This document shows positions 13,840 to 52,204 of a stretch of DNA of 52,204 nucleotides, piece by piece. Origin of the DNA: Candidatus Altimarinota bacterium (GTDB lineage Bacteria > Patescibacteriota > Minisyncoccia > Phycocordibacterales > UBA5272); NCBI GenBank assembly GCA_021734745.1, contig JAIPIK010000007.1:1-52204 (forward strand), written 5' to 3'. The notes below the pieces were generated by a model, which saw only the letters and a list, made by a program, of their open reading frames with translations, was not told the origin of the DNA and did no database searches. A program made the position numbers and the translations under genes. Numbering within the stretch: position 1 is the first letter of the stretch; each line of letters begins with the position of its first letter.

Positions 13840-13989
13840 GTAGGGATCGGTCACAAATCTGCCTCCCTTCGTTCGAAGCAGATTCGCGACCCCTATTCGA
13901 TCCCTACCCGAAAGCCAAGCAGTTGGATTTCTTGGGGACACAGAAATTTAAAATCACGAAACATACTGTTTCGCGATTTTAAATTTCTG
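13840..13989 (-). ncRNA. tRNA-3'-end structured element, copy A3 (tRNA-Lys)
   Basis: The first part completes a palindrome with the tRNA end: 13975-13996 pairs perfectly with 13934-13955 (22 bp), then a GU pair on the minus strand, 6 bp more and a 5-base loop. The arm includes six bases of the tRNA-Lys acceptor strand. Next come a 22-base hairpin (about 13912-13933), GAATAGGGGTC (13888-13898), an apical motif TCGAACGAAGGGAG (13863-13876), TGACC and a 10-base copy of the tRNA T arm (13840-13849). It is the cleanest example of the family. A pairing of TTTGTGACC with GGTCGCGAA includes a GU pair. Confidence 0.7.
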
Positions 13990-14062
13990 TGTCCCCAGTA
14001 GGGATCGAACCTACGACCTGCGGATTAAGAGTCCGATGCTCTACCAGCTGAGCTATAGGGAC
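13990..14062 (-). tRNA. tRNA-Lys (CUU)
   Basis: Anticodon arm CGGACTCTTAATCCG gives CUU. T arm GTAGG-TTCGATC-CCTAC, acceptor GTCCCTA/TGGGGAC. Not followed by CCA (A then CAG). Its acceptor 3' strand is also one end of a near-perfect 29 bp palindrome with element A3. Confidence 0.93.
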
Positions 14063-45115: not shown

Positions 45116-46183
45116 TTAAGCAATTAATTTCTTCAGAGCACAACCAAGTGCTACTGCGTATGTTGGCCCGACTCTTTCTATCATTTCTGATAAAAATTCT
45201 GGAACCTTCACTCGCTCAAATGGTGTTGCGACCCTTCCTGCTATATGCACTGTCTGACTATATACATCCAGTACACCAGAAACACGGGCACCACCACCTG
45301 TTAAAATTATTCCTTCTATATGTTGATTATACTTTCTTTCATACATTAGGGATAGTCTTGCGACCTCACCAAACAGTGGATAACTAGAAAGTTGCATAAT
45401 ATCTTTTATGTATGGATTCGAAAAATCTCCCTTATATCCAAAAGTACGTTTTGCGTCTTCTGCCGTATCAATTGGAACAGAAAGCGCCTTTGAAAGCTGT
45501 AAAGTGCTTTCCTGTGACCCGTGACTAATAACATGCATATCAAGAACTATATTCTGATGAACAAGTGACAGCGTGGTACTTTGAGAACCAATATCAACGT
45601 AAAGCACCATTTTATGAGTATGCGGGGAAGAACTACGTACCACGCTATAACCATGGATCTCATATTCCACATTCGTAAGTCCAAGTTTTTTAACTAAACG
45701 ATCGTACATGGCTAATGTCTCATTGTTCACTGCAGCGAGCACAATATTTATTAATTCATCATGTGACCCAATATTAACTGTCGTAGGCACATGCCACCAA
45801 TCCATTTGTACTTCCGTTAATGGTATAGGAATATACTTTCTCGCTTCGATTGGAATCATGGTACGTAATTGGTCATCATCAACTTTGGGAACTTTTATAA
45901 GAGAGACATACGTTGCTGATGGATCAATCGCAATAACAGTATTATGTGCTGTTACTTTCGCCTCTTTAAAAAGATTATTAATTGCTTCTAGAACTTTTTC
46001 CTCACCAAGGTGTATAGCTTGCCCGACGAATATTCCTCCGTATGGGCCAAGTGGCACTTCACCATAAGTATCTAGTATTACTCTTTCTTTTTCACGACGA
46101 AGTTGCACAACTTTAATTGATGATGGACCGATATCAAGACCGATCGCCTGACCAACCTCTTCTTTCTTAAATAGTTCAAACAT
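45116..46183 (-). CDS. pilM: PilM-like actin-fold pilus assembly protein
   Basis: A 355-residue cytosolic ATP-binding protein. Features: phosphate loops AIGLDIGPSSIKVVQL and VLYVDIGSQSTTLSL, IPIEARKYIPIPLTEVQMDW and GIILTGGGARVSGVLDV. It binds the PilN tail. First gene of the pilus operon; TATACT lies eight bases before the ATG, suggesting a leaderless mRNA. Divergent from comF. Confidence 0.93.
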   Translation of the reverse strand: MFELFKKEEVGQAIGLDIGPSSIKVVQLRREKERVILDTYGEVPLGPYGGIFVGQAIHLGEEKVLEAINNLFKEAKVTAHNTVIAIDPSATYVSLIKVPKVDDDQLRTMIPIEARKYIPIPLTEVQMDWWHVPTTVNIGSHDELINIVLAAVNNETLAMYDRLVKKLGLTNVEYEIHGYSVVRSSSPHTHKMVLYVDIGSQSTTLSLVHQNIVLDMHVISHGSQESTLQLSKALSVPIDTAEDAKRTFGYKGDFSNPYIKDIMQLSSYPLFGEVARLSLMYERKYNQHIEGIILTGGGARVSGVLDVYSQTVHIAGRVATPFERVKVPEFLSEMIERVGPTYAVALGCALKKLIA

Positions 46184-46332: not shown

Positions 46333-46965
46333 ATGATACGCATACTAATCTCTGAGATAATATCAATAATTTTTCCTCCAATCTGTTACGGTTGTAGCAA
46401 AGAAGGATTTTCATTATGCAAGTCGTGCCTGGACCGTTCCAGAAAAACAATTGATACTCCTTACAACTGGATTGCGAGTGTATATAGCTTCAAAGAACCT
46501 ATTATCAAAAAATCAATTCATGCAATTAAATATTTTCATAGACGGGATTTGATAGAGCCATTAACAAAAGAATTGGCGTGTGAAATAAATACCAGTATCA
46601 ACCAAAATCAAATTAGTGAAAATTGGGTACTGATTCCTATTCCTATGCCGAGAATAAGAAAATACATCCGTGGATATAACCAAGCCGAACTTATTTCTCT
46701 TTCACTCTCAAAACAATGTTCACTACCCACTATCTCAAATACGCTAATTAGAACAAGTTCGCCGAAACGCCAAGTAACCACAAAAACTCGCGGAGAAAGA
46801 CTAAAAAATCAACATAATAGTTTCAAAGTAATAAAAGACGTAACTGGTTTGAATATTGTTCTAGTTGATGATGTAACTACAACTGGTGCAACTTTAAGTG
46901 AAGCAAGAAGCGTTCTTTTAAAAGCTGGCGCAAGAAGTGTAAAAGCTGTGACAATTGCACATTAA
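46333..46965 (+). CDS. comF: ComF-family phosphoribosyltransferase-like protein
   Basis: A 210-residue protein. An N-terminal zinc-finger (FPPICYGCSKEGFSLCKSC) is followed by a PRTase-like domain with LIPIPMPRIRKYIRGYNQAE and the PRPP-binding loop VLVDDVTTTGATLSEA. ComF is needed for DNA transport in transformation. The TACACT box eight bases before the ATG suggests leaderless start. Its location beside the pilus operon and the presence of dprA support a competence role. Confidence 0.92.
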   Translation: MIRILISEIISIIFPPICYGCSKEGFSLCKSCLDRSRKTIDTPYNWIASVYSFKEPIIKKSIHAIKYFHRRDLIEPLTKELACEINTSINQNQISENWVLIPIPMPRIRKYIRGYNQAELISLSLSKQCSLPTISNTLIRTSSPKRQVTTKTRGERLKNQHNSFKVIKDVTGLNIVLVDDVTTTGATLSEARSVLLKAGARSVKAVTIAH

Positions 46966-47030: not shown

Positions 47031-47579
47031 TTATTCTTTACTTCCTCTAAACAAATCTTTAAAGAAATTTACAATCTTAGAATCACTAGGACGGTCTTGT
47101 AATAATCCAATTCTCATCCCAGGTCTGTTATCTTCATCATTTGAATCATTTTCTCCACCTCTTCTCATCATTAAATATCCCTTAGTAGTTGATGCTCTCA
47201 AATCTTCCATGTACTCTCTTACAGTTGACGATGCAACTCTTGGCTCACCCTTTCCACGAATAAGTTTATGGTCACCAACAATAACCTTAAATTTTGCAAG
47301 ATACTCCTCATGAATGGCTTTTAATTTAGCCTCCATTTCTGTATTCAAAGCTTTTAATTCTGCATCAATCACTGGATCACCGGTTGTTGCCCTTGCAAAA
47401 GATGGCATAGATTTATATTTATCATCTTTGCCTTCTTTATCATACATAACTGAATATGTTGAAGTTCCTTTTTTCATCATTCCATTTCTTCCATTTGATT
47501 CATTATCTTCATGTGCAAAAACACTTCCGCCGGTTAAAACCAGTGACATTGCTATTATTGATATAATTTTTTTATTCAT
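47031..47579 (-). CDS. Secreted hypothetical protein
   Basis: A 182-residue protein with a signal peptide (MNKKIISIIAMSLVLTGGSV, cut near FAH). The acidic/Asn-rich start is followed by a helical part (IDAELKALNTEMEAKLKAIH, then EYLAKFKVI) and a charged tail. Many CPR genomes have similar short secreted helical proteins, but no named family is recognised. No ribosome site seen. Confidence 0.65.
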   Translation of the reverse strand: MNKKIISIIAMSLVLTGGSVFAHEDNESNGRNGMMKKGTSTYSVMYDKEGKDDKYKSMPSFARATTGDPVIDAELKALNTEMEAKLKAIHEEYLAKFKVIVGDHKLIRGKGEPRVASSTVREYMEDLRASTTKGYLMMRRGGENDSNDEDNRPGMRIGLLQDRPSDSKIVNFFKDLFRGSKE

Positions 47580-47683: not shown

Positions 47684-48136
47684 CTAATTTCTTACTAATT
47701 CATCACGAACTTCCATCCATAACTTCCCTAAATGGTTTTCTCCATCTTTGTTTGGTCCCCATCCCCAATAATTATCTCTCCATGAATCTTCAACTAATTC
47801 TTTTTGACCTGAATCAATTAGTTTCTTCATTACATATGGATGTTGTAAAACTTTTTCCTTAAGTATTTCTTTCATTATTCCTAACTTTACATCATCCCAA
47901 TCACTTCGACGTTTATCTTTATTTGCATTAGCAAACTTTTGAGAATCATGAGCAGAGCGAGTATTCCTTAACTCTTCCTTAAGCTTTTCATCTTCAAATT
48001 TTTCAGAATGATATGCGTGTTCAGAAGTTGGATAAAGTTTCCCTTTCCATTCCAACATAAAAGACGAGTAGTTTGAAAAAACGTAGAACTCATGTTCGTA
48101 AAAAAAGATTTGTTTTTCTGTGTCGTTGCCGTGCAT
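47684..48136 (-). CDS. NADAR family protein (YbiA-like)
   Basis: A 150-residue protein of the NADAR/DUF1768 group. Features: FYVFSNYSSFMLEWKGKLYP, TSEHAYHSEKF, and LWMEVRDEL at the C-terminus, with the Trp-rich WRDNYWGWGPNKDGENHLGK. Members cleave N-glycosidic bonds of riboflavin intermediates or remove ADP-ribose from guanine in DNA, as antitoxins of DarT-like toxins. No such toxin is next to it. TGCTATAAT lies six bases before the ATG: leaderless. Confidence 0.88.
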   Translation of the reverse strand: MHGNDTEKQIFFYEHEFYVFSNYSSFMLEWKGKLYPTSEHAYHSEKFEDEKLKEELRNTRSAHDSQKFANANKDKRRSDWDDVKLGIMKEILKEKVLQHPYVMKKLIDSGQKELVEDSWRDNYWGWGPNKDGENHLGKLWMEVRDELVRN

Positions 48137-48224: not shown

Positions 48225-48345
48225 CTCCTTGTAATGCAATGTTATTGCGGAGGCAGAATCTGGTCGCACTTTAGTGCTCGCGATTCTGCACTGCGCAAAT
48301 TATGTTGTTTGTAGTCAAACAACTAATTTGCGGAGATTGTGGGAC
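48225..48345. repeat. Structured repeat C1, left of the kinase/TPR operon
   Basis: Begins with CTCCTTGTAATGCA (also at 51347-51360). Then TTGCGGAGGCAGAATC and GATTCTGC...CGCAAA form hairpin 1. The same CGCAAATTA can instead pair with TAATTTGCG downstream (hairpin 2, loop TAGT). Matches the copies at 51250-51455 in the same orientation. No coding potential seen. Confidence 0.65.
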
Positions 48346-48383
48346 GAAGTTGGAACACTTTTATTAACTAAACTTGAAATATA

Positions 48384-50120
48384 TTAACTACCTATCTTAT
48401 CTTCAAGTTCTTTGATATCTGTTTCCATGTATGTTTTACCATATGCTTTTGCTTCATTTAAATTTTCTAACGCCTTTCCTTTTTGTTTTTTATTAAACCA
48501 ATATAAAGATGTTTCGTAAAATAGAATCTGAGATGCTAATTTCTTATTAACACCCTTAAATAAATCTATTGCATCTTCATAGTATTTCTTTCCTTTTTCT
48601 AAATTACCCTTTCTTATCTCAAGAAGGCCTTTTGTTGCAAAAAAAGGAATAAATTCTGGATTATTACTTTTTTCTAAAAGCTCAGATGCTTTTTTCAAAT
48701 CTCCCAATTTTATATAAGCTACAGCAAGATTATTTATGACAAAATTACTTTTATACCCTAAATCAATCGCCTCGTTTAAAATTTCTATAGTTTTCTTATG
48801 ATTTCTTTTTATTGAAGTAAGTACAAAAGAGTACTCAGGGTAAATTTCTGGCACTTCTTTTGTTATGCTTAATGCTTTTTCATAAAAACTTATTGCACCA
48901 TCATAATCTTCATTTTGATTCCAATAATTAGCTTCAAAATAAAAACCATAAGCATTACCAGGGTCAAGCTCTAAAATAACTCTAGACATTTCCTTAACTG
49001 TAGATAAATCATGTCTAGTAACAGCAATTCTCCCAATATTATAAAATGCATTCAATGATCTAATATCTTTTATAACCCCTTTTTTTATTTCATCACTAAA
49101 TATAGCCGCTGCTTTTCTAAAATAAGAATCTGCCATATTAATACTAGATTCACCTTCCCGAAGATAACAAACTCCTAAATTATTATACAATAAATTATTT
49201 TTTGGTTCATTTCGTATAAGTTTCTCATACAATATACGAGCTTTCCTTAATTGCAAATCCTCTAGCAAAAGCCAAGCATAAAGATGTGTATAGTTATTAT
49301 CTATAGCAACGTTTTTTGTGACTGCAGAATCAAGAACATTTAATGCTTCTTTTATTTTATTTTGCTCAAGATATGTGTTTGCTAAGTTCTGATAACTAAA
49401 AGGATAATTATACGGATCAACTTCTAAAGCATTCTGTAAATAATGACAAGCTTTATCATAAGATTTTTCCCTAAGATAACAAACCCCTAAATTATTTACT
49501 GCGTGTATATATTCTTTATTAATTTTTAATACTTTCTCAAAAATATTTTTTGCTTCGGAAAGATCTGTTCTTGAATTCATTATTAAAAAACCTTTAAGGG
49601 CAAGTATATCTATATCTTCAGGTTCCCTTTCAAGAGCCGTATCAATCAACTCAAGTACAGATCCTATGTTTGAAAAATCACCCTTTAATGCCGTTGTTTT
49701 AAAAACTATATAATCTTTAAAAATTTGATACCTATCTGTTTTTGATAAAAGTATTTTAAAGTACTCCTCTGCTCTATCAAACTGATGATGTTTTGTGTAT
49801 GTATCAATTATTTTTTTATATATTACTATACTTTCAGGGTCTGAATTTAAAGCTTCTAAATAAAAATCAACAGCTCTCTTATAATTACCCTGTATTTCAT
49901 ACCAATCACCACGCTGTAATATATTACGAGGATTACGATTCTCAGTATAGTTAGCTTTTATATATTTCCCTTGATTACGAACCATACTCCTTCTAAACTC
50001 TCTTGATTGATAGATGTTATTTTGCAAACTGGACGGACTTAAAAAAGTAGGCCCGTCTAAAACTTCCTGCCTTGATGAAGTAACATATTCTTTTTTATCT
50101 AATACGTCTGAAGATGTCAT
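48384..50120 (-). CDS. TPR-repeat protein, kinase partner
   Basis: A 578-residue protein made almost wholly of tetratricopeptide repeats, about 13-14 units (NLGVCYLREKSYDKACHYLQ; NLANTYLEQNKIKEALNVLD; NLAVAYIKLGDLKKASELLE). The first ~60 residues are polar. No signal peptide or membrane segment, hence cytosolic. Its start overlaps the kinase stop by four bases (ATGA), so translation is coupled and the two proteins probably act together, the TPR part as substrate or scaffold. Confidence 0.88.
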   Translation of the reverse strand: MTSSDVLDKKEYVTSSRQEVLDGPTFLSPSSLQNNIYQSREFRRSMVRNQGKYIKANYTENRNPRNILQRGDWYEIQGNYKRAVDFYLEALNSDPESIVIYKKIIDTYTKHHQFDRAEEYFKILLSKTDRYQIFKDYIVFKTTALKGDFSNIGSVLELIDTALEREPEDIDILALKGFLIMNSRTDLSEAKNIFEKVLKINKEYIHAVNNLGVCYLREKSYDKACHYLQNALEVDPYNYPFSYQNLANTYLEQNKIKEALNVLDSAVTKNVAIDNNYTHLYAWLLLEDLQLRKARILYEKLIRNEPKNNLLYNNLGVCYLREGESSINMADSYFRKAAAIFSDEIKKGVIKDIRSLNAFYNIGRIAVTRHDLSTVKEMSRVILELDPGNAYGFYFEANYWNQNEDYDGAISFYEKALSITKEVPEIYPEYSFVLTSIKRNHKKTIEILNEAIDLGYKSNFVINNLAVAYIKLGDLKKASELLEKSNNPEFIPFFATKGLLEIRKGNLEKGKKYYEDAIDLFKGVNKKLASQILFYETSLYWFNKKQKGKALENLNEAKAYGKTYMETDIKELEDKIGS

Positions 50121-51040
50121 ATAAAAATATTTTGAACTTCTTCTAGAATTTCTCCAACAGTTCTATATCTTAAATCTAGGTCAGGATTGGTGGCCTTCTT
50201 TATTATCTCATTAACTTTTAAACTTGCCGAATCAGATTTTAAATAAACATCCAAATTATTAATAGTATGTACTGATTTTGCCCATTTTTTATAACTTTCT
50301 GTTTTTGCAGAAGTATCCATTGTGCTTAAATCTAGATTTTCCTTATTTATTATAAAATCTTGCATATTATCATAAATTTCAGATACATAACGCATTGGAA
50401 TATTGTCGAATAGATAATACAACACAATACCTAAAGCATAGATATCTCCCGGAATATATCTTGAAATTGGAGTATTGTCATCATGCACTTCAAAATAAAA
50501 CTCTGGTGGACTTACAAAACCTCCCCAACGAGGTTTAACACTATTTCCAAAACGATTTGCATCAAACTGTTTTCCAAGACCAAAATCAGAAATTTTTATT
50601 TCATTAGTTCTCACAACCAATATATTATCCCAGTGTAAATCTCTGTGAAGAATATTATTAGAATGTGCATGTTGCAAACCTTCACAAACTTCATGAAAAA
50701 TTCTAACTTTCTCTTCATCAGTAATTATTGCTTGTGTACTAGTTAGTAATTTTTCTAACGCATAATCAGCTAGCTCCATTAGATAATATAAATGTGAAGT
50801 TGTGTGTGGTGTAGGAGAACTATATGGAATTATTATATTTCTATGTGGACTTAACGTTTGTAGAATACTATGTTCATCATGAAAAAGATTTAAATCATTA
50901 GCATCTAAACTTTTACATAACTTCAAAGCAAAAAGATTTTTAGTTGCTTGATGTTGAACTTTATATACATGAGCAAAACTACCTGCTCCTTTATATTCTA
51001 AAACTAAGTGGTTATTTATAATTTCTCCATTTCTGAGCAT
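50117..51040 (-). CDS. Hanks-type Ser/Thr protein kinase
   Basis: A 307-residue kinase with all catalytic elements. The Gly loop is GAGSFAHVYK (18-27), the ATP lysine K40 in FALKL, the catalytic loop HRDLHWDN (132-139) and the metal motif DFG (152-154). SPPEFYFE stands at the APE position. There is no transmembrane or PASTA region, so it is soluble, unlike PknB. TGCTATAAT lies about ten bases before the ATG. Coupled to the TPR gene; both lie between direct copies of repeat C. Confidence 0.93.
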   Translation of the reverse strand: MLRNGEIINNHLVLEYKGAGSFAHVYKVQHQATKNLFALKLCKSLDANDLNLFHDEHSILQTLSPHRNIIIPYSSPTPHTTSHLYYLMELADYALEKLLTSTQAIITDEEKVRIFHEVCEGLQHAHSNNILHRDLHWDNILVVRTNEIKISDFGLGKQFDANRFGNSVKPRWGGFVSPPEFYFEVHDDNTPISRYIPGDIYALGIVLYYLFDNIPMRYVSEIYDNMQDFIINKENLDLSTMDTSAKTESYKKWAKSVHTINNLDVYLKSDSASLKVNEIIKKATNPDLDLRYRTVGEILEEVQNIFI

Positions 51041-51232
51041 CGTATAATAGATTATAGCATTTAATTTTTAACTTTAATTCCTTTTTTTATTATCAATTCT
51101 ACCTTTGTTAGTTCAAAGGATACACTTTATCAAACTCAGGTATTTTAGGGTAATACTATAGATGTGAGGTATTTGGTCACTAAACATATCCTTTTCTTTT
51201 TACCTTTCAGACTCAATAAAAGATTGTTTCGT

Positions 51233-51455
51233 GACCCCTATTGAATTTACGGAGGAAGAATCTGGTCGCACTGGTGTGCTCGCGATTCTGCACTGCGCAA
51301 AATATTCACTGCGCTTTGCGGAGGCATATACATAGTCGTGAGTACACTCCTTGTAATGCACTGCTTTGCGGAGGCAGAATCTGGTCGCACTGGTGTGCTC
51401 GCGATTCTGCACTGCGCAAAATATGTCATTTGTAACCAAATGACTATTTTGCGGA
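51233..51455. repeat. Structured repeats C2 and C3 with an A-like motif, right of the kinase
   Basis: C2 (about 51250-51305) and C3 (51365-51455) share 49 identical bases (51257-51305 and 51376-51424). C3 also has hairpin 2 (51415-51453: CGCAAAATA..TATTTTGCG, loop TAAC). At 51233-51243, read on the minus strand, stands CAATAGGGGTC, the core of the type A tRNA elements. The segment 51041-51232 showed nothing clear. Confidence 0.65.
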
Positions 51456-51610
51456 GCGTCTCGTGTTAGAACCGTGGTCGGTTAAGACCTGTAAGGACAG
51501 TTTACTACATTTTCAAATAATTGACTCGATCCATCTCGAGCACTAGCAAAAAGTGACAAAAGTGACACTTTTTTCACTATAAAGTTACAGTTGTTTGTCA
51601 CTAATTTTTG

Positions 51611-51698: not shown

Positions 51699-52091
51699 TT
51701 ATGACATTAAATTCTTTAACTTAGTTTTTATTTCTTCCAAGATAGAAGTTTCTAAAGAGTACATATTTCTCTTTAACCTTTTAATACTCAACAGCTTAAG
51801 TTGAGCAAGAATAGCTGATACCTTTTCATTATGTGGGTCAGTATAGTTAAAATAGAAGTCAAATTTCTTTTGCTTTGTAGAAAGTGGCACAACCCAAAAC
51901 ATGTGGTTATTAAACTTTTTCACAATAAGAACAGGTCTAGAAAAACTATCACCACTACCATTTTGTTCATATCCAATATTTCTACCTAGATTACTCATCC
52001 AAACTTCACCTTCTTTTGGAAATTTGTTTGGGTCAATTTCATCTTCCTCTATTTCCTTTTTTAAGTTATTCCAATCATCAAAATCTTGCAT
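51699..52091 (-). CDS. PemK/MazF-like toxin-family protein
   Basis: A 130-residue protein with PemK-like blocks. FPKEGEVWMSNLGRNIGYEQ starts the barrel, then FSRPVLIVKKFNNHMFWVVPLS, and AILAQLKLLSIKRLKRNMY. MazF/PemK toxins are mRNA interferases. The usual ~25-residue N-terminus is extended by an acidic stretch (WNNLKKEIEEDEIDPN). No antitoxin gene is seen on either side, although sequence to the right is cut off at 52204. Start 52091 is preferred over 52127, with TATACT six bases upstream. Confidence 0.75.
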   Translation of the reverse strand: MQDFDDWNNLKKEIEEDEIDPNKFPKEGEVWMSNLGRNIGYEQNGSGDSFSRPVLIVKKFNNHMFWVVPLSTKQKKFDFYFNYTDPHNEKVSAILAQLKLLSIKRLKRNMYSLETSILEEIKTKLKNLMS

Positions 52092-52204
52092 ATATTTAGT
52101 ATACAACAAGATAATCATGTAACTCACAATGTCGCCTTTTTTAATTCTGCATAGACTATGCAGGGATTATGGTTCTGTCATTAATATATAATGGAAGCAC
52201 AAGA

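Follow-up and report, generated by a model that had tools for sequence, protein, structure and literature searches.

The kinase-TPR operon described here is, with a probability of roughly 60%, hotspot cargo that comes from, or is a remnant of, an element whose large serine recombinase (LSR) recombines at a core sequence at the 3′ end of a serine tRNA gene. The locus itself is a genus-wide integration hotspot beside tRNA-Ser, and the status of the operon as an accessory cassette is well supported. The stretch of DNA analysed, referred to as the window, is a complete contig (C27) of 52,204 nucleotides, ending at position 52204, from a genome of a Nomurabacteria/Paceibacterota-type MAG lineage, 960,017 bp in 30 contigs and 97% complete. 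The genus comparison covered 16 genomes, made up of the window's own and 15 congeners, whilst 384 genomes of the class were sampled for the kinase search and 397 relatives for the end-motif search. All of these are MAGs or unnamed assemblies, whose contigs break at repeats; genomes are cited below by G numbers and loci by L numbers.

A variable locus and its kinase-TPR cargo

The first cargo gene (50117..51040, minus strand; PF00069, 2.4e-33) encodes a soluble Hanks-type Ser/Thr kinase of 307 amino acids with all of its catalytic motifs intact, namely the glycine loop GAGSFAHVYKV, ALKLCK, HRDLHWDN and DFGLG. The second (48384..50120, minus strand; TPR_2, 7e-29) encodes a TPR protein of 578 amino acids, and the coupling of the two genes proposed by the sequence-only reading is borne out by the overlap of the TPR start with the kinase stop in an ATGA. 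The operon has a GC content of 29%, against 36% for the window. A search of the 15 congeners for the kinase returned a single remote match (29%), and no relatives were found in the 384 class genomes at E<=1e-20 or in viral contigs. Matches on plasmids and phages are only generic kinases at ~25-30%, and the relatives of the TPR protein are likewise generic.

On its left the locus is anchored by two conserved genes. The first, which is pilM-like (45116..46183, minus strand, 355 aa), belongs to a family, F1, present in 14 of the 14 genomes with comF, and takes its putative name from N-terminal similarity to a protein of L202 that itself matches PF11104. The second encodes a comF-like phosphoribosyltransferase (46333..46965, plus strand; PF00156) with an orthologue in 14 of the 16 genus genomes, the window's own included. 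A small secreted-type protein (F3; 47031..47579, minus strand) follows and is kept in most congeners. The gene order pilM-comF-small secreted protein-[variable]-tRNA-Ser(ACT)-tRNA-Ser(GCT)-mscL is found in several congeners and is rearranged in others. The variable part extends over ~6 kb in G006, ~10 kb in G004 and ~7 kb in G009, and in the window it consists of the NADAR gene and the kinase-TPR pair. The comparison of sister genomes for an empty site, as had been proposed, located one in G003, where the small secreted gene lies ~110 bp from tRNA-Ser(ACT) and the locus carries no insertion. The earlier suggestion of an accessory cassette is upheld by this site, by the absence of the kinase from the congeners bar the one remote match, and by an island-end sequence that bounds other cargo elsewhere. 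As further cargo, G009 encodes a 282-aa protein directly behind a tRNA-Ser(ACT)-hairpin unit (L021:8135-8983), with no Pfam or PADLOC match.

The two neighbours that had been named from the sequence are indeed present. The NADAR-domain protein (47684..48136, minus strand; PF08719, 3.7e-28) is accessory and lies outside the cassette end, and the PemK/MazF-like protein (51699..52127, minus strand; PF02452, 3.6e-9) lies at the contig end. No family common to the congeners was found for the NADAR protein at the same locus; its gene, placed after the conserved locus and before the cassette end, may constitute a cassette in its own right.

The double-hairpin unit at serine tRNA genes

Repeat C, which had been described as flanking the operon on both sides in one orientation, does so in three exact core copies: its 45-base core occurs at 48255, 51257 and 51376 (plus strand) with 0 mismatches, where shuffles expect 0 occurrences, and the 49-base identity between the right-hand copies is exact (51257-51305 = 51376-51424). 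The search of all 960,017 bp gave no fourth copy. The three copies in the genome all flank the operon. Repeat C is not a generic repeat; in congeners it is a tRNA-Ser 3′-end sequence. Its functional orientation is the minus strand, as for the operon.

In the orientation of the tRNA (minus strand of the window) the unit spans ~88 bp and reads CTCCGC-AAAATnG-hairpin 1-ATTTTGCG-CAGTGCA-hairpin 2-TGCCTCCGC. Copy 1 (48247..48335; R1, 90 bits; alignment A1) and copy 2 (51368..51456; R1, 94 bits) both retain the double hairpin H1-H2, and the DNA fold of the copy 2 region has a z of -7.2. The middle copy (51249..51323; R1, 48 bits) is partial, with H1 damaged and H2 intact. Beside it lies a hairpin variant of H2′ type (GCATTACAAGGAG...TATGCCTCCGC; 51320..51365), read from the sequence and matching the H2′ form of G009, G012 and G014. 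All of these lie on the minus strand, as does a tRNA-Ser(ACT)-like sequence (51451..51537) that H1 directly abuts. Once the CTCCGC common to both was taken out, its alignment gives a z of 4.6 relative to shuffles, and it returned no Rfam match and no ARAGORN call. Congeners hold an intact tRNA-Ser(ACT) there, and the sequence in the window is likely, though not certain, to be a decayed one. A search of the window's genome found no intact tRNA-Ser(ACT), and an Rfam scan of the repeat region gave no credible RNA family. In many congeners an intact tRNA-Ser(ACT), with A34, stands beside tRNA-Ser(GCT) (L018:9898-9985, L019:9127-9214, L021:9119-9206, L027:2626-2713 and L154:13050-13139); bacteria seldom have serine tRNAs with A34.

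A decayed mini-element, GGGGTCACG...GTGACCAAAT (51131..51238, minus strand), has a pattern common to L027, L110, L155 and L230, and relatives have this type of element close to a tRNA-Ser gene or tRNA-Ser 3′ end. Such elements form a second class near tRNA-Ser 3′ ends (L117, L118, L155, L157, L152, L027, L230 and 51131-51238 of the window), with the order reverse-complement tRNA 3′-end piece, GGGGTCGCG, palindrome, GTGACC(A/G)AAT and the tRNA 3′ end a second time, now in direct orientation. In G013 one such element has the sequence of a different tRNA-Ser and looks as though it had moved. Elsewhere in the window, at 13933-13997, an almost perfect inverted repeat of 31 bp (TGGGGACACAGAAATTT..., loop of 3 nt) overlaps the end of a tRNA-Lys and resembles a small mobile palindrome.

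Relatives of repeat C in the congeners begin directly at the 3′ ends of tRNA-Ser genes. The consensus from 11 unit copies forms two hairpins, in which 11 of the 25 pairs show compensatory changes; the covariation of 0.361 compares with 0.107 +/- 0.021 in shuffled alignments (0 of 500) and collapses once the partners are slid. A covariance model places the unit in 8 of the 16 genus genomes, mostly abutting tRNA-Ser (GCT, ACT, TGA or GGA), although one of the eight, G013, holds weak variants only. Amongst 84,980 species genomes the exact pattern has no match outside MAGs that bear the label Patescibacteria, Nomurabacteria, Paceibacterota or plain ‘bacterium’ and that are apparently the congeners compared here, and it is absent from viral contigs. 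A class-wide search brought up diverged forms, one of them at a tRNA-Met.

The unit inserts at tRNA-Ser, as is seen from a comparison of species with exactly corresponding filled and empty sites. At the empty tRNA-Ser(TGA) site of G014, CTCCGCA runs straight into the terminator, whilst at the filled site of G009 the unit lies between the tRNA end and the terminator and ends in CCTCCGCA. Similarly, tRNA-Ser(GGA) is followed by a unit in G009 and by none in the window's own genome. The terminal sequence of the unit tracks its target, being CTCCGC at serine tRNAs and CCTCCCGCAAC at tRNA-Met, and two variants in G013 bear the 3′ end of their own host tRNA.

These sites also bear on the possibility that tRNA-Ser transcripts have these hairpins as conserved 3′ trailers, which act in processing and were copied along with tRNA-Ser by tandem duplication, the operon having come to lie between two of the copies through ordinary rearrangement. 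The hairpins do covary, directly follow tRNA-Ser and are probably co-transcribed with it, and in G009, G015 and G001 they recur in the tandem tRNA-Ser(GCT)-hairpin-tRNA-Ser(ACT)-hairpin. However, hairpin-less tRNA-Ser genes are common, including all four intact ones of the window's genome and the pair in G003, the insertion at tRNA-Ser(TGA) is exact, and far cassette ends have no tRNA yet carry an order-wide end motif, so that the trailer explanation is unlikely. The claim that the repeats are the boundaries of the cassette holds only in part: they do flank the operon, but they are a tRNA-Ser 3′-end element that is also found without cargo.

It is very improbable that repeat C is an element of REP/RAYT or IS200/IS605 type, mobilised by a Y1 transposase. 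The short paired palindromes resemble REP/BIME sequences with RAYT, they stand beside a GGAG tetranucleotide, and Y1 transposase genes are present in the genome. Against this, Y1 genes occur in G000, G001, G002, G005 and G008, a distribution that overlaps with only two of the eight repeat-bearing genomes and on which the REP/RAYT origin was rejected; repeat C, unlike REP/BIME, is tied to tRNA-Ser rather than dispersed, with no matching RAYT distribution; and its unit ends copy the 3′ end of the target tRNA, something not known of Y1 elements.

Island ends and large serine recombinases

The far boundary of the operon carries TTCSAACTTYGTY-N7-CNCCRC, which marks island ends across the order. In the window this end motif, TTCCAACTTCGTCCCACAATCTCCGCAAA (core CTCCGC; 48327..48355, minus strand), points outward from the TPR gene with 0 mismatches to the order-wide pattern. 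On the TPR side TTCCAACTTCGTCCCACAAT stands before the core CTCCGC, and this block also ends the cargo regions of G014 and G004. With up to one mismatch allowed, the pattern was listed at 49 places in 40 of the 397 relatives, against two for a reversed control. In several genomes it appears as an outward-reading inverted pair, whose long ends are identical and lie 2.3 to 6 kb from each other. That the motif might be the decayed 3′ end of a tRNA was rejected, since the motif is order-wide, tightly conserved and often in inverted pairs. The window has only one end motif; towards the tRNA, the end consists of decayed hairpins stacked one after another.

The end motif is shared, and many such ends are associated with one LSR subfamily and with R-M cargo. 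An LSR of this subfamily adjoins about half of the examined ends. It lies directly outside one of the ends and, at most loci where it occurs, shares 60-100% identity with the LSR of G207. In G207, G490 and G042 tRNA-Ser(GCT) is found on the other side of the LSR region, and in G004 an LSR of the G207 subfamily, with Resolvase, Recombinase and zinc-ribbon domains, touches tRNA-Ser(ACT). Just outside the far end lie comF in G207 and comF with pilM in G559, as amongst the window's neighbours. At some ends no LSR is found within 1.5 kb, in part owing to contig breaks. LSR genes in general are numerous in these ~1-Mb genomes (L161-L190), with five in that of the window, and many of those in L161-L190 neighbour tRNA genes of various kinds (Gln, Tyr, His, Asn, Leu, Asp, Ala and Ser).

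The common core of ~6 bases fits a serine recombinase better than a tyrosine integrase, for which a longer common tRNA segment is usual. A tyrosine integrase was rejected as the mover, as there is mostly one chromosomal Xer-type PF00589 gene per genome. No integrase lies between the repeats, and the single PF00589 gene of the window's genome is on contig C18. The same observations weigh on an integron-like arrangement in which repeat C would be an attC-like folded site for a tyrosine integrase. As in integrons, cargo lies between structured direct sites, and repeat C has a conserved bulged base and stands at the cargo end with a promoter-providing tRNA upstream. Nevertheless, neither IntI nor attC core boxes, which were sought by eye, could be recognised, and the genes at related ends encode LSRs rather than tyrosine recombinases. 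An integron-like origin is therefore highly improbable.

The preferred explanation is that an LSR element recombines at the short CNCCGC core at the tRNA-Ser 3′ end. The kinase-TPR operon, at the site between pilM-comF and the tRNA-Ser pair, would have been brought by such an element or be what remains of one, and the conserved half-site would represent the far end of the element. An LSR of the G207 subfamily may have moved the present cassette. The window's genome contains no LSR of this subfamily, the nearest being 31% identical, and the cassette is therefore likely to be a relic, a passenger or dependent on another enzyme. H1-H2 may be a non-autonomous unit of the LSR machinery or a folded site for it; the suggested link is one of position, and at several island ends a hairpin follows immediately after the core.

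Cargo, function and known systems

The islands that share the end motif carry varied cargo. That of G552 holds a HindVP-type R-M set with PDC-M48, and that of G207 an HpaII-type R-M set with PD-Lambda-5. An HNH protein is found in G063, a cytosine methylase in G520, and the restriction enzymes MvaI and TdeIII in islands of G037, G559 and G619. R-M genes lie within ~1.5 kb of 6 of ~20 related ends, compared with none of 10 genes outside; outside the ends, comF and a cyclase-like protein match defence models only via shared superfamilies. Non-defence cargo, named by eye, includes GNAT, NUDIX, LigT-like, methyltransferase-like and nucleotidyltransferase-like proteins.

The kinase matches many defence kinases in PADLOC, the best being mad6 (130 bits), with M71A at 62 bits, and the TPR protein matches PDC-M71B (53 bits) over residues 431-571. 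Through its Hanks kinase the pair resembles PD-T4-6, Stk2, mad6 and PDC-M71, a kinase with a TPR protein and the one PADLOC system for which matches to both proteins were seen; the match is low to generic in score, and M71B aligns only with the C-terminal part of the TPR protein. As these models pick up kinases and TPRs generally, little weight is placed on them. The PDC systems are, according to the mention of them in PMC11811056, unpublished candidates of Payne et al.

Its position and its company make defence the likeliest role for the pair, at just under an even chance. The role, suggested earlier as one in defence or stress, is plausible only by association with sibling islands that carry R-M genes, PD-Lambda-5 and PDC-M48. 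As the most likely mode, a candidate one, the TPR protein would detect an infection signal and the kinase would then phosphorylate host targets, so that growth is stalled. Growth-stalling phosphorylation by defence kinases has been proposed for other systems. A serious alternative, whose chances are somewhat below even, is that the pair is a regulatory kinase of an ordinary kind plus its TPR scaffold, picked up by chance in the hotspot and with no link to defence. The mixed cargo and the generic PADLOC matches, the best for the kinase being the kinase of another system, are consistent with this view, whereas the R-M genes concentrated at related ends and the nearby NADAR and PemK genes argue against it. 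This alternative concerns function only and leaves the mobility of the preferred explanation unaffected.

The closest known kind of element is represented by the SCC/ECC cassette chromosomes and by tRNA-targeted islands. SCC/SCCmec and the Enterococcus cassette chromosome (ECC) are defined by insertion at the rlmH 3′ end and a CcrAB att motif, TATCATAA (PMC6222049), and they share with the present system an LSR, a single fixed 3′-end target, variable cargo and serial insertions at the same site. In contrast, the target here is a tRNA-Ser gene rather than rlmH with TATCATAA, the core is the short CTCCGC (CNCCGC) and hairpin units are present. In place of CcrAB, a single LSR is found within the element in G207, G490 and G004, and the window cassette has none. 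Islands of the Islander type (PMC4383910) and tycheposons similarly insert at tRNA 3′ ends, with restored or displaced tRNA ends and a hotspot of variable cargo. The window likewise has a tRNA 3′ end on one side, in the probable tRNA-Ser(ACT) remnant, together with variable cargo and the empty site of G003. These islands use tyrosine integrases, however, whereas the window cassette contains none, the associated enzyme is an LSR and the core identity is ~6 nt.

A search of open-licence papers returned no account of the present system. A bolder proposal, and a doubtful one, would be that these ends belong to an undescribed, order-wide LSR ‘cassette chromosome’ of Patescibacteria at tRNA-Ser 3′ ends, which would give rise to non-autonomous double-hairpin units and carry defence modules that can be exchanged, the kinase-TPR pair being one of these modules and a new two-gene anti-phage system. 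Gene gain and loss, and phage resistance, are poorly known in episymbionts with genomes of <1 Mb. The fixed landing site, tRNA-Ser by comF-pilM, and the end motif together would allow cargo to be extracted from thousands of Patescibacteria genomes, and new defence candidates may be discovered through them by position.
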